Assembly: GCA_013375485.1 (NCBI GenBank)
Contig: JABXKB010000007.1
Span: forward strand, 1-36,686
Direction of reading: 5' to 3'
Length of the DNA: 36,686 nucleotides
Source: Promethearchaeota archaeon
Lineage (GTDB): Archaea; Asgardarchaeota; Lokiarchaeia; Sigyniarchaeales; SOKP01
Notes under the pieces: model-generated
Told to the model about the DNA's origin: nothing
Databases searched by the model: none
Seen by the model: only the letters and a program-made list of their open reading frames with translations
Shown here: positions 7,708-29,853 of the stretch, in pieces
Position numbering within the stretch: position 1 is the first letter of the stretch
Layout of the letters: each line of letters starts with the position of its first letter
Program-made: the position numbers and the translations under genes

Positions 7708-8007
7708 GTGTCGGAAAAAGAAGAAAAACAAATAGTTAGAAAAACTACACTAAATCTTAGAAGAAAATACGGAAGAACAAAACAAATAAATATTGTTGAG
7801 AGAGATGCTTTTATTCCTAAAAATATAGAAAAAGAAATAAAAGAAGCGATCATGAAAAAGAAAACAATTTTAGCAACTGACATTGCAATGAGGTATGATA
7901 TAAGAGTATCGACAGTAAAATTACTTTTAAAACAATACGAAGATGAAGGTTTAATCAAATTGTTTGATCCATCCTTAAAATTAAAAATTTATGTTCCTTC
8001 ATCTTAA
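7708..8007 (+). CDS. eS25-like ribosomal / winged-helix protein
   Basis: Protein of 99 aa starting at GTG, with a basic lysine/arginine-rich N-terminus and a winged-helix C-terminal half (ILATDIAMRYDIRVSTVKLLLKQYEDEGLIKLF). This matches the layout of ribosomal protein eS25 in archaea and eukaryotes: a basic disordered arm, then a winged helix with a DIAMRYDIRVS-type recognition segment, ending soon after a beta wing (LKIYVPS). An alternative is a small DNA-binding regulator, since the fold is shared. It is transcribed divergently from the Bud23-like gene, so two genes of likely ribosomal role share one intergenic region. The start is chosen because residues after GTG (MSEKEEK) look coding and the next in-frame start is far inside the protein. 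Confidence 0.65.
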   Translation: MSEKEEKQIVRKTTLNLRRKYGRTKQINIVERDAFIPKNIEKEIKEAIMKKKTILATDIAMRYDIRVSTVKLLLKQYEDEGLIKLFDPSLKLKIYVPSS

Positions 8008-8160: not shown

Positions 8161-8265
8161 GCAGATGTAGCCTAGCTGGTAAGACGCCGGCCTCGAGTGT
8201 TAATAGTGATGATCAAGAAAGCCGGTGCGCGTAAGCGCTCGGGGGTTCGATTCCCTCCATCTGCG
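8161..8265 (+). tRNA. tRNA-Ser(CGA) with 22-base intron
   Basis: The acceptor arm GCAGATG pairs with CATCTGC and G is the discriminator base. The anticodon stem is CCGGC/GCCGG around the loop CT-CGA-G...A, giving anticodon CGA (8194-8196), which reads the serine codon UCG. An intron of 22 bases (8198-8219) sits at the canonical position 37/38. A long variable arm (GCGC-GTAA-GCGC) confirms a class II tRNA, and the T arm is GGGGG-TTCGATT-CCCTC. The D stem has a C11-A24 mismatch (GCC against GAC), which is unusual. A T run follows directly as terminator. No CCA is encoded. Confidence 0.92.
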
Positions 8266-8278: not shown

Positions 8279-9214
8279 TTACTGTATTATCTGTAGAATT
8301 AAATTCTCCATTTGAGGTTTGGCGGCTTCAATTTTGTCTAGAATTGAGATAGTTTTTTCTAAATCTGCCTTATCTTCTTCTACAATGAATAACAAATAGA
8401 AATCCAATTTTCCAAATTTAAGAACTTCAATTATACCTGAGAACCTCTCTCCGCTTTCAAATTTATCGGAAAATTCTAATAAAGTTCTATTTTCGGTAAC
8501 AACACGTTTTTGTAATTCAATATATTTTTCATATATCTTTAATTTCTCATTTAATTGAAGATGGGGTCTATAGTATTCGCCAAGAGTTATTCCTTTGGCA
8601 TCAAATAATGCAATTAAGATGGAATTATAGTTTTTACTTATTTCAGAAAATAATTGAGAAACCATTTCCATCTTTTCGAATAACATTGATAAACCGCTTG
8701 AAAATGCATCCATAATAGATTTTATGTCGAAAATTGTTGTTTCAAAGAAAAATATATCAAAAGCATTTGAATATCTTGTTAAAGCTTGCTTTAATGTAAG
8801 AATCCGTTTATTGATATCTCTATCATTAACAAGTTGAGGGTCGAATTTATGAAAAAGAATGCATATCGGCACATATTCTTGTTCTTCCTTGAAGAAAAGT
8901 AATACTTCTTCCAAATAATCTATAGATTCAATATATCGGTTAAAATCTTGAGCATCTATAACATAAAATAATAAATCTGTTCCCATTAGATATTTTTCTG
9001 GATGTTTTAAATATTCTTCTCTATATTGCTTCTGACCTCCAAAATCCATCCTTGTAAATTCTATGCCTAAAAATTTGAAAGAATCACGAGCAATTCTTCT
9101 TGTAGGTGTTAATCTAGCAATCTCTTCTTCAAAACCAAAGCGATTTGTTATTGCTGTTATGATACTGGTCTTACCTGCATTATCTAAGCCCATTACACCA
9201 ATCTTTTTTGAAAT
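8279..9214 (-). CDS. Rag/Gtr-like small GTPase, probable AUU start
   Basis: The P-loop GLDNAGKTS is of Arf/Rag type, G3 is MDFGGQ and the G4 position reads FHKFD, resembling the HKxD motif of Rag/Gtr GTPases rather than NKxD. The C-terminal ~130 residues (from about QLFSEISKNYNSILIALFDAKG) look like a roadblock-type domain, as in Rag proteins that bind Ragulator-like partners. The ORF track starts at ATG 9193, which would remove the first beta strand before the P-loop. Upstream in frame lies ATT TCA AAA AAG ATT GGT GTA, restoring the strand KKIGVM. GGTGA stands exactly six bases before that ATT, so initiation at ATT is preferred. It converges on tRNA-Ser. GTPase identity is firm; Rag subtype is likely. 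Confidence 0.82.
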   Translation of the reverse strand: MSKKIGVMGLDNAGKTSIITAITNRFGFEEEIARLTPTRRIARDSFKFLGIEFTRMDFGGQKQYREEYLKHPEKYLMGTDLLFYVIDAQDFNRYIESIDYLEEVLLFFKEEQEYVPICILFHKFDPQLVNDRDINKRILTLKQALTRYSNAFDIFFFETTIFDIKSIMDAFSSGLSMLFEKMEMVSQLFSEISKNYNSILIALFDAKGITLGEYYRPHLQLNEKLKIYEKYIELQKRVVTENRTLLEFSDKFESGERFSGIIEVLKFGKLDFYLLFIVEEDKADLEKTISILDKIEAAKPQMENLILQIIQ

Positions 9215-9225
9215 AATAAATCACC
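9212..9225 (-). promoter_or_regulatory. Shine-Dalgarno site plus ATT start of Rag-like GTPase
   Basis: On the minus strand GGTGA (9225-9221) is followed by six bases and ATT (9214-9212). The TGA of the site is in frame with the gene and closes the ORF upstream. No ATG, GTG or TTG lies between it and the ATG at 9193. Confidence 0.6.
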
Positions 9226-9364: not shown

Positions 9365-9646
9365 TTAGCCCCCTGCTAATGCATAAGACAAATAAAGTTC
9401 ATCTCCATCTTTAAGGCTTGTTTTGTAATTTTTAAGATATTTAATGTTTCTACCGTTCAATAATATTAGAATATGGGTATTAAATTTTTGTTTGCTATTA
9501 TTCAATAATTCCACATCAAGTTTATCTCCATTTTCCTTTAGAAATTGAGATATTATATCTCCAACAGTTTTTCCTTCATAATCTATTGATTTTTTATTAA
9601 TTCTAAGTTGAAAAATATTTAATAAGTTCAATTTCACTTTAGCCAT
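9365..9646 (-). CDS. Ubiquitin-like small modifier / sulfur carrier (SAMP/MoaD/ThiS-like)
   Basis: Protein of 93 aa with the beta-grasp layout of MoaD-family proteins: an initial strand pair, a helix near residues 28-36 (VGDIISQFL), the central ILLNGRNI strand, a KTSLKDGDELYLSYALAGG end, and a free C-terminal diglycine. This family carries sulfur for molybdopterin or tRNA thiolation and, as SAMPs, is conjugated to proteins in archaea. No E1-like partner lies nearby, so its role cannot be decided from context. The insert before ILLNGRNI (about residues 42-54) is slightly longer than in minimal MoaD. Confidence 0.8.
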   Translation of the reverse strand: MAKVKLNLLNIFQLRINKKSIDYEGKTVGDIISQFLKENGDKLDVELLNNSKQKFNTHILILLNGRNIKYLKNYKTSLKDGDELYLSYALAGG

Positions 9647-13208: not shown

Positions 13209-13222
13209 GGTGAAATATAATT
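13209..13222 (+). promoter_or_regulatory. Shine-Dalgarno site plus ATT start of coiled-coil zinc-ribbon gene
   Basis: GGTGA (13209-13213), six bases, then ATT (13220-13222). The TGA is in frame with the gene, and no ATG, GTG or TTG occurs in frame before the ATG at 13265. A TATA-like TTATATATT lies about 70 bases upstream of the ATT. Confidence 0.6.
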
Positions 13223-14101
13223 AGTATCGACTGGTCAAAAGCAGAAGAAAAGCCCGATAAGAAAATGTCGGTTGAAGGCAGATTCTTACTGGACCTCAGA
13301 GCTAAAGTCAATGACTTAGAAAAACAATTAACTGAAACTAAAAATGAATTAACTCAAACAAAAGATAAACTTGCCGATACAATGAATGAACTCGATGAAA
13401 CTCAATCCAAACTAGAAAAAACTGAAAATGACCTTGAAAAGACTAAAATAGATGATCAAGAAGTAATTAAAAATCTGAATACTGAAAATAATGACCTTAA
13501 GCAAGAATTAGCAGAGTTTAAAACTAAAGCTGACGATCTGGATAACAACTTGGCTCTTAAAGAAGCAAAAGTTTCTGAATCTGAAGAAAAAATAACAAGT
13601 TTAACATCAGAGTTAGAGGTTTCTAAAGAAAAAGGTTCAGACTTAGAAAACCAACTGAATGAGGCAAATAATACTTTATCAACAAAAGTAGGAGAAATAA
13701 ATAATCTCACTTCTCAAGTTGAAGAATTAAATTCGAAACTAGCAACAGCTCAAGGCGAAATTACTCAATTAAATTCTCAATTGAGTGAACTAAATAACAC
13801 ACTATTGCAAAGAGATAACCAAATTCAAGAATTAAGTGATAAAGTCGTTGAGAAAGAACAGGTTTTAGAATCCACTTCAGCACATCTTCATGAAGTTGAA
13901 ACTGAGTTAGATGAATTGAAACCACCAGACATAGGTGCGGGAGGATTCGCCAGTGATGAGCGGATTACTTGCCCGATGTGTGGTGCTGTAGGAACTAATA
14001 TCAAGGTCATAGAAGATAAGACTAAAGTTCTCTCCTACGTAGGACATATCCCTATGTATGCAAAGAAGCATGTCTGTAAGAAGTGCGGCTATGAATTTTA
14101 A
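13220..14101 (+). CDS. Coiled-coil protein with C-terminal zinc ribbon, probable AUU start
   Basis: A long coiled coil occupies about residues 20-230 (repeats such as KLEKTENDLEKTK, LNSQLSELNN). It is followed by a Gly-rich hinge and a C-terminal zinc ribbon with two knuckles, CPMC and CKKC, ending CGYEF. The ORF track begins at ATG 13265, but the preceding in-frame codons from ATT 13220 (ISIDWSKAEEKPDKK) look coding and are preceded by GGTGA at six-base spacing, so 293 aa is the more likely length. No enzymatic motif. It could be a nucleic-acid- or protein-binding tether. It stands alone, and a T run follows the stop. Confidence 0.78.
   Translation: MSIDWSKAEEKPDKKMSVEGRFLLDLRAKVNDLEKQLTETKNELTQTKDKLADTMNELDETQSKLEKTENDLEKTKIDDQEVIKNLNTENNDLKQELAEFKTKADDLDNNLALKEAKVSESEEKITSLTSELEVSKEKGSDLENQLNEANNTLSTKVGEINNLTSQVEELNSKLATAQGEITQLNSQLSELNNTLLQRDNQIQELSDKVVEKEQVLESTSAHLHEVETELDELKPPDIGAGGFASDERITCPMCGAVGTNIKVIEDKTKVLSYVGHIPMYAKKHVCKKCGYEF

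Positions 14102-20897: not shown

Positions 20898-20898
<1 letters not shown>
20686..20898 (-). pseudogene. Decayed C-terminal fragment of a second GH2 beta-galactosidase
   Basis: Directly after the lacZ stop, the minus strand reads about 70 codons (HNHELPHREFILFNIDYR, stop, QEVKGDFPAIAAIHKK..., SYAFLLRGYTKDMGDFNAIAQK, stop). They align without gaps to the last ~66 residues of the neighbouring lacZ product (for example NIDY, SYxFLLRxYxKxMGxFNxI), with about 45% identity by eye. One internal TAA (20832-20830) and the absence of any start mark it as a pseudogene. It is most simply the tail of a tandem lacZ paralog whose body was deleted. The remaining ~100 bases to the permease gene look like AT-rich upstream sequence. 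Confidence 0.8.
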
Positions 20899-24101
<3,203 letters not shown>

Positions 24102-29323: not shown

Positions 29324-29337
29324 GGTGAACATTAATT
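29324..29337 (+). promoter_or_regulatory. Shine-Dalgarno site plus ATT start of HIT gene
   Basis: GGTGA (29324-29328), six bases, then ATT (29335-29337). The TGA is in frame with the gene, and no ATG, GTG or TTG occurs in frame before the TTG at 29368. Confidence 0.6.
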
Positions 29338-29853
29338 TTTAAAAAGTGGCTACAGGCATTAGGAAAATTGGATTATGTTCAAGGAAAAACAAAACCACTC
29401 GTTGATTGTATTTTATGTGCTGTGCGTGATAATGATGAAAGAGTCAAATCTCTAAAAATTTACGAAGATAGTTTATGTTTTATTACTCTGAATTTATATC
29501 CTTACAACCCTGCTCATTTAATGATAGTTACTCAAAGACATATAACTAAATTCCTTGAGCTTACTAAAGAAGAACTCGTTCATATCACAAGAACAATTCA
29601 AGGAATTCAATTATTATTAGACGAGTTATATAATCCTAAAGGGTATAATATAGGTATAAACCAAGGACGAGATGCAGGAGGCAGTATTGAACACTTACAT
29701 TTTCATATAGTTCCGAGATATGGCTCTGAACTTGGATTTATAGATATTGTAGGAGAAATTCGTGTTTTACCTGAAGGTTTGGATTCTGTAAAGGAAAAAT
29801 TAGAGGGATCCATTAAAAATTATTTAAATAGAGAATTCTTCGAGAATTTCTAA
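29335..29853 (+). CDS. HIT-family nucleotide hydrolase/transferase, probable AUU start
   Basis: HIT protein with the zinc-type CILC motif, the NLYPYNPAHLMIV block and the catalytic HLHFHIVPR triad (HxHxH). These enzymes cleave or transfer nucleotides, such as diadenosine polyphosphates or aminoacyl-AMP adducts. The ORF track starts at TTG 29368, giving 161 aa. Reading from ATT 29335 adds FKKWLQALGKLDYVQG, which resembles the W-x-x-(R)-x-x-YV segment that begins many HIT proteins and is preceded by GGTGA with six-base spacing. A 172-aa product starting at AUU is therefore favoured. Confidence 0.85.
   Translation: MFKKWLQALGKLDYVQGKTKPLVDCILCAVRDNDERVKSLKIYEDSLCFITLNLYPYNPAHLMIVTQRHITKFLELTKEELVHITRTIQGIQLLLDELYNPKGYNIGINQGRDAGGSIEHLHFHIVPRYGSELGFIDIVGEIRVLPEGLDSVKEKLEGSIKNYLNREFFENF

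Follow-up and report, generated by a model that had tools for sequence, protein, structure and literature searches.

The window, that is, the whole stretch of 36,686 nucleotides analysed here, lies on contig C123 of a Lokiarchaeia genome (G000), a metagenome assembly of 4.6 Mb in 457 contigs. On its minus strand it carries a gene for a Rag/Gtr-like small GTPase, whose start site consists of the following features:

8279 to 9214, minus strand: Rag/Gtr-like small GTPase, coding sequence read from ATT (Pfam Gtr1_RagA 4.9e-24; PDB 8yl2, LokiRagO, 6.8e-35 by sequence and 1.4e-16 by fold)
9221 to 9225, minus strand: GGTGA, a Shine-Dalgarno-type site of the GTPase gene, pairing with the 16S rRNA 3' tail GGATCACCTC (tail taken from relatives)
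9212 to 9214, minus strand: ATT, at which the GTPase very probably starts, 6 nt after GGTGA, with ATG (G018) or ATT/ATA/GTT in orthologs at the same column
9191 to 9193, minus strand: ATG, the mechanically called GTPase start; when the protein is read from AUU it is Met 8, at the end of strand beta-1 (ORF calling and structure models)

Directly upstream of the GTPase gene lies a gene for a ThiS-family (ubiquitin-like) protein ending in ...ALAGG (9365-9646, minus strand). Just past the 3' end of the GTPase gene is an intron-containing tRNA gene (8161-8265, plus strand; Rfam RF00005, 43 bits) that was missed by ARAGORN, and tRNA matches also adjoin the GTPase orthologs in G001, G003 and G015. 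The gene for ribosomal protein eS25 (Pfam S25; 7708-8007, plus strand) has a GTG start.

The GTPase matches Pfam PF04670 (Gtr1_RagA, 4.9e-24) and also Arf, and its motifs GLDNAGKTS and DFGGQ satisfy what is expected of a P-loop and a switch region. Its closest solved relatives by both sequence and fold are the Lokiarchaeal Rag proteins (PDB 8yl2, 8zla, 9m28), with LokiRagO (8yl2) and LokiRagM (8zla) nearest by sequence and LokiRagO, human RagA/C and yeast Gtr1 nearest by fold. The Foldseek alignments to full-length RagA/Gtr1 and LokiRagO span about 300 columns, with TM-scores of only 0.4-0.5; the C-terminal roadblock-like domain was not separately scored. Identity to LokiRagO and LokiRagM in the fold alignments is 20-28%, and the comparison bears on the protein alone, not on how its gene starts.

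Start site of the GTPase gene

The minus strand reads ...ATTTGGTGA TTT ATT ATT TCA AAA AAG ATT GGT GTA ATG GGC TTA GAT AAT GCA GGT AAG... at the beginning of the gene. An earlier note on this DNA, made from the letters alone, had argued that the protein would open with MGLDNAGKT and lack its first beta strand if started at the called ATG, and that an ATT exactly six bases after GGTGA is the start instead. The opening MGLDNAGKT and the spacing (GGTGA at 9225-9221, ATT at 9214-9212) are as it described. So is the upstream limit that it set, since the TGA inside GGTGA (9223-9221) is a stop in frame with the GTPase, and no ATG, GTG or TTG is present between this TGA and ATG 9193. An earlier ATT at 9217, with a spacing of 3 from GGTGA, is also in the GTPase frame; ATT 9214 is preferred because the orthologs single it out.

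The orthologs were compared within one genus, g1 of family f1, and beyond it. Aligned with the window's ATT, the codon is ATT in G000, G001, G003 and G013, ATA in G009, G011 and G015, and GTT in G008 and G014. In G018 the sequence is GGTGA TTTTTT ATG ACA AAG AAA ATT, with ATG at exactly this column, and the start column is established by this sister species; most of the others replace the ATG by a codon differing from AUG at the third base. Across the orthologs GGTGA lies 5-6 nt upstream of the column, in most of them with an in-frame stop just before it. The G010 protein is one residue longer, with its ATT one codon further upstream and the spacing of 6 after GGTGA kept. Comparable arrangements are found in G002 (GGTGT-N6-ATA, immediately following an in-frame TGA) and G016 (GGTGG-N6-ATC), and standard codons serve in G005 (GTG), in G004, G006 and G017 (ATG at neighbouring positions) and in other genera of the family (ATG or TTG; G020, G021, G022). 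Upstream of the G009 and G015 genes there is an in-frame TTG or GTG, so a normal start is possible in these two, which alone need no near-cognate codon. The annotated ATG (9193) is not conserved, its place being taken by ATA in G001, TTG in G005, CTA in G016, TTA in G020 and ATT elsewhere. Orthologs that uniformly begin at MGLDN, which would have spoken against the AUU start, were therefore not what the comparison returned.

Structure prediction with and without the additional residues supported the need for the AUU start on the protein side, together with the ortholog start column. In the AlphaFold2 model of the AUU-started protein (24 sequences), residues 3-9 (KKIGVMG) form strand beta-1, which is missing from the ATG-started model (14 sequences), where residues 1-36 have pLDDT below 50. 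With pTM 0.51 and 0.48 the two models are moderate, and the smaller alignment behind the ATG-started one is a confounder; they are thus taken as support for the AUU start, not as proof. The N-terminal stretch SKKIGVMGLDNAGK would be expected in the protein if it starts at AUU and would be absent if it starts at ATG 9193. Although no N-terminus has been measured, the comparative evidence for the start site is strong, and we consider it very probable that the GTPase is translated from AUU 9214-9212 and that this start belongs to a recurrent GGTGA-N6 near-cognate rule.

Near-cognate starts in other genes and the spacing rule

Beyond what the earlier note had proposed, the GTPase case is one instance of a rule that recurs in the genus, and the gene of initiation factor aIF1 is itself AUU-started. 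Further genes of the window show the same arrangement (coiled-coil and HIT genes) or a probable ATA start (beta-galactosidase):

13209 to 13213, plus strand: GGTGA of the coiled-coil gene, 6 nt before ATT, its TGA in frame
13220 to 14101, plus strand: coiled-coil protein with C-terminal Cys motifs, read from ATT 13220-13222; the ortholog column has ATT six times, TTG four times and ATG twice
29324 to 29328, plus strand: GGTGA of the HIT gene, 6 nt before ATT, its TGA in frame
29335 to 29853, plus strand: HIT-family protein (HIT domain 6.8e-21), read from ATT 29335-29337, with ATT in 7/8 orthologs
24066 to 24068, minus strand: ATA, probable start of a beta-galactosidase according to ortholog codons; the mechanical call is TTG 24089
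20898 to 24068, minus strand: glycoside hydrolase family 2 beta-galactosidase, coding sequence read from the ATA (domain search)

Between the in-frame stop and the conserved coding start, no NTG codon was found in the GTPase, coiled-coil and HIT genes of the window or in most of their orthologs. For the HIT gene, G006 has ATG one codon upstream, and in G013 a TAA directly precedes the ATT ('taa ATT TTT AAG AAG TGG'); a DNA pattern for this start, run over the order, matched with ATT in six genomes belonging to the genus, and the remaining matches look unrelated. The beta-galactosidase orthologs of G009, G013, G006 and G005 have ATG at the column of the window's ATA, and those of G008 and G015 have ATA shortly after an in-frame TAG without an NTG between, so that a start at ATA 24068 is inferred as probable for the window gene. 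From the near-cognate start up to the next NTG, the differences per site at codon positions 1/2/3 are:

GTPase: 0.26/0.21/0.48
HIT: 0.17/0/0.35
Coiled-coil: 0.16/0.23/0.38
aIF1: 0.08/0.04/0.46

Third positions vary most in all four genes; judged by this pattern of differences, the codons in question evolve as coding. Another GTPase-like gene, in G003 (b + 142932), has ACG at spacing 6 from GGTGA (ACG AAA TTA TCA TTA GTG GGA CTT...), and there an ACG start, again supplying strand beta-1, is probable.

For the statistics, orthologs in 1.43 Mb of same-genus DNA were collapsed into gene families before counting. At spacing 6 from GGTGA, AUU/AUA/AUC occurs in 11.7 of the 25 gene families, against 2.7 expected (P about 2e-5). 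The control same-frame spacings 3, 9, 12, 15 and 18 give only background (12.3/123; Fisher P 1.4e-4), and AUG/GUG/UUG is used at spacings 4 to 10. Among single genomes, 620 kb of G003 yielded 14 codons at spacing 6 from GGTGA, among them four ATA, two ATC, two ATT, one ACG and one ATG, and 440 kb of G001 yielded ten, among them four ATT, one ATA and three NTG. Four NTG and two AUH were counted at this spacing in G024, from another genus of the family (n=6), and four NTG but no AUH in G030, from another family (n=6). A whole-genome count of WGGTGA-N6-ATH versus N9 in the genus (4637 vs 4610) is swamped by the coding background and lends no support. These figures rest on samples from few genomes, and the enrichment on 25 gene families. 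The near-cognate mode is recurrent in this Lokiarchaeia genus, and probably in its family, with roughly 1-2% of genes and, by extrapolation, a few dozen genes per genome concerned; it uses AUU, AUA and AUC, with an occasional ACG or GUU. As the spacing is fixed, such starts seem to be set more by the ribosome-binding site than by the codon.

Start codon of the aIF1 gene

The aIF1 gene (Pfam SUI1) of G000 lies on contig C293, and its leader in the family is AGG TTG TGA TAA GAG AGT ATT AAA GAC GAC GAC ATT TGT CCx. In f1 outside genus g7, the start column is ATT in 28/29 genomes and ATC in one (G022), and 28/29 have no ATG, GTG or TTG from the in-frame stop up to the zinc knuckle CPxC; in the exception, G053, the sole NTG is the GTG inside its GAGGTGA site. 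Since the knuckle is conserved as protein, it must be translated. ATA is the codon in genus g7, in the f2 species G028 and G032 (again without NTG) and in G080 and G162. Among the rows parsed, the aligned codon of the f28 species is CTG or GTG and in no case ATG. ATG is found in f4, f8, f12, f17, f23 and most of f20, and G155 has ATA at that column. These phylum-wide rows were selected by the DNA pattern of the knuckle, and the SUI1 profile confirmed only genomes among 39 relatives. With that profile, aIF1 was not located in G001, G010, G011 and G014 of these relatives; absence is not claimed, and contig breaks are the likely reason because aIF1 adjoins 16S in several assemblies. G003 has two aIF1 places, C1:1385131 and C1:1032029, the upstream part of the first being masked by N.

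The aIF1 site, AGGTTGTGA-N9, is imperfect and lies nine bases from the AUU; it is not GGTGA-N6 and falls outside the spacing rule. Such a site would fit a deliberately weak start.

Initiation machinery, alternative readings and related systems

In the genome of the window and its sister species, the initiator-type tRNA has A1:U72, the GGG/CCC anticodon stem and the anticodon CAU. An intron follows its position 37, and for this reason a pattern for intron-less initiator tRNAs missed the genus. Introns appear to occur at several places in the tRNAs of these genomes (anticodon loop, D arm, T arm), sometimes two per gene, initiator tRNA included. The 16S rRNA ends in ...GGATCACCTC wherever it was located (23/39 genomes, including G003 and others of the same genus; not G000), an ordinary tail with which GGTGA pairs normally. 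As initiator tRNA and 16S tail are normal and aIF1 is present, the simplest mechanism is Shine-Dalgarno positioning combined with two-of-three pairing. The GGUGA would pair with the 16S rRNA tail, the exact 6-nt spacing would place the near-cognate codon in the P site, and the ordinary initiator tRNA (CAU) would start there with two of the three codon pairs. That Met-tRNAi(CAU) reads the near-cognate codons, and that Met is the residue made, is inferred.

Several other explanations of these starts have been weighed. If the annotated ATG 9193 were the true GTPase start, the conserved codons before it would be leader; this ATG is the first NTG after the in-frame stop and is chosen by mechanical gene finding, and the protein that begins there still scores in Pfam (1.5e-23). 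However, such a protein would have no strand beta-1 in its G domain and the P-loop region of its model collapses, the supposed leader evolves as coding, and the orthologs do not conserve this ATG and have a real one at the ATT column, all of which leaves the annotated start very unlikely. Translation from further upstream, by readthrough of the TGA or by a frameshift, for example from a GTG inside GGTGA, might be considered since GGTGA contains both GTG and TGA, and both kinds of event are known in archaea (PMC8211752). Yet this GTG is in a different frame at spacing 6, codons further upstream of the GTPase are not conserved, orthologs carry further stops (TGA TAA, TGA TGA), and the TAA before the ATT in the HIT gene of G013 also argues against readthrough, so that this explanation is hardly credible.

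It could also be supposed that an assembly or sequencing error turned ATG into ATT, the genome being a metagenome assembly in 457 contigs, but about a dozen species with independent assemblies have near-cognate codons at the GTPase start, and such codons recur in further genes and in aIF1. The independent genomes refute such an error, whose chance we regard as negligible. A special initiator, with the codons read by an additional initiator tRNA of different anticodon or the mRNA edited, would explain why any base is accepted at the third position of the codon (AUU, AUA, AUC, AUG), as if it went unread, and archaeal tRNAs carry unusual modifications. Nevertheless, the initiator-type tRNA that was found is the normal one, ACG and GUU starts are incompatible with an Ile anticodon, and we know of no U-to-G editing. 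The tRNA search required CAU, with other anticodons sought only in intron-less form, so a special initiator is improbable but not fully excluded. Initiation by the ordinary initiator tRNA at a positioned near-cognate codon remains the preferred reading; it is based on comparisons of sequence, with no N-terminal peptide, ribosome profile or toeprint behind any of the starts.

Near-cognate initiation and autoregulated fidelity factors are already known in kind; their systematic use in an archaeal lineage and the aIF1 case appear to be new. In bacteria, the IF3 gene infC has ATT as its start codon in E. coli and ATC in Streptomyces, and that codon serves its autoregulation (PMC5472188). The resemblance lies in a near-cognate start in the gene of a fidelity factor, here aIF1, with other near-cognate genes beside it. 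IF3 and aIF1, however, are different protein families, the regulation by aIF1 is only inferred, and here a number of ordinary genes begin with AUU/AUA/AUC as well, in connection with GGUGA-N6. Eukaryotic eIF1 (SUI1) autoregulates via the poor context of its AUG (PMC7049704 and works cited therein); aIF1 is of the same family (Pfam SUI1) and its gene, too, has a suboptimal start, but here the codon is poor rather than the context of an AUG, and archaea are without long-range scanning. For Asgard archaea, the available passage on the Kariarchaeaceae tubulin AtubA reports that its first strand was restored by a 'rare ATT start codon' (PMC13394414, 2026). As for the GTPase, the first beta strand is regained from an ATT further upstream that has a plausible ribosome-binding site, and the argument is the same; AtubA is a single gene and belongs to a different Asgard lineage, and that passage mentions its start as a cloning detail, without a series of orthologs, a spacing rule or genome statistics. 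This was the only Asgard ATT-start report recognised, and none dealing with the aIF1 start codon in Asgard genomes was recognised, in a search by title and abstract with subscription journals largely outside its scope. According to a 2021 review, non-canonical translation in archaea had been demonstrated solely for elongation and termination (PMC8211752).

Gene finders commonly accept AUG, GUG and UUG alone. With this restriction, an unknown number of Asgard proteins, including eukaryotic signature proteins, probably have wrong N-termini in databases, which affects structural work, as has already happened with the Asgard tubulin.

From Sulfolobus work, as cited in PMC6237735, aIF1 is described as disfavouring non-canonical start codons. 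Because a factor that rejects poor starts is itself encoded from AUU, its most likely physiology would be self-limitation together with co-regulation of the other near-cognate genes: aIF1 would limit its own synthesis and co-regulate them, as IF3 does in bacteria. Lokiarchaeia may thus possess an aIF1-controlled near-cognate regulon, in which an AUU-started aIF1 (AUA, CUG or GUG in other Asgard families) is self-limiting and a few dozen GGUGA-N6-AUH genes, including those of the Rag-like GTPase and the HIT protein, vary with it. This regulation is inferred without expression data, and we are slightly more doubtful than convinced of it. If true, the logic of infC and eIF1 would be present, independently or by inheritance, in archaea near the origin of eukaryotes. 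Self-regulation of start-codon fidelity factors is known from bacteria and eukaryotes, and the AUU start of aIF1 opens this question to direct tests in Asgard archaea.
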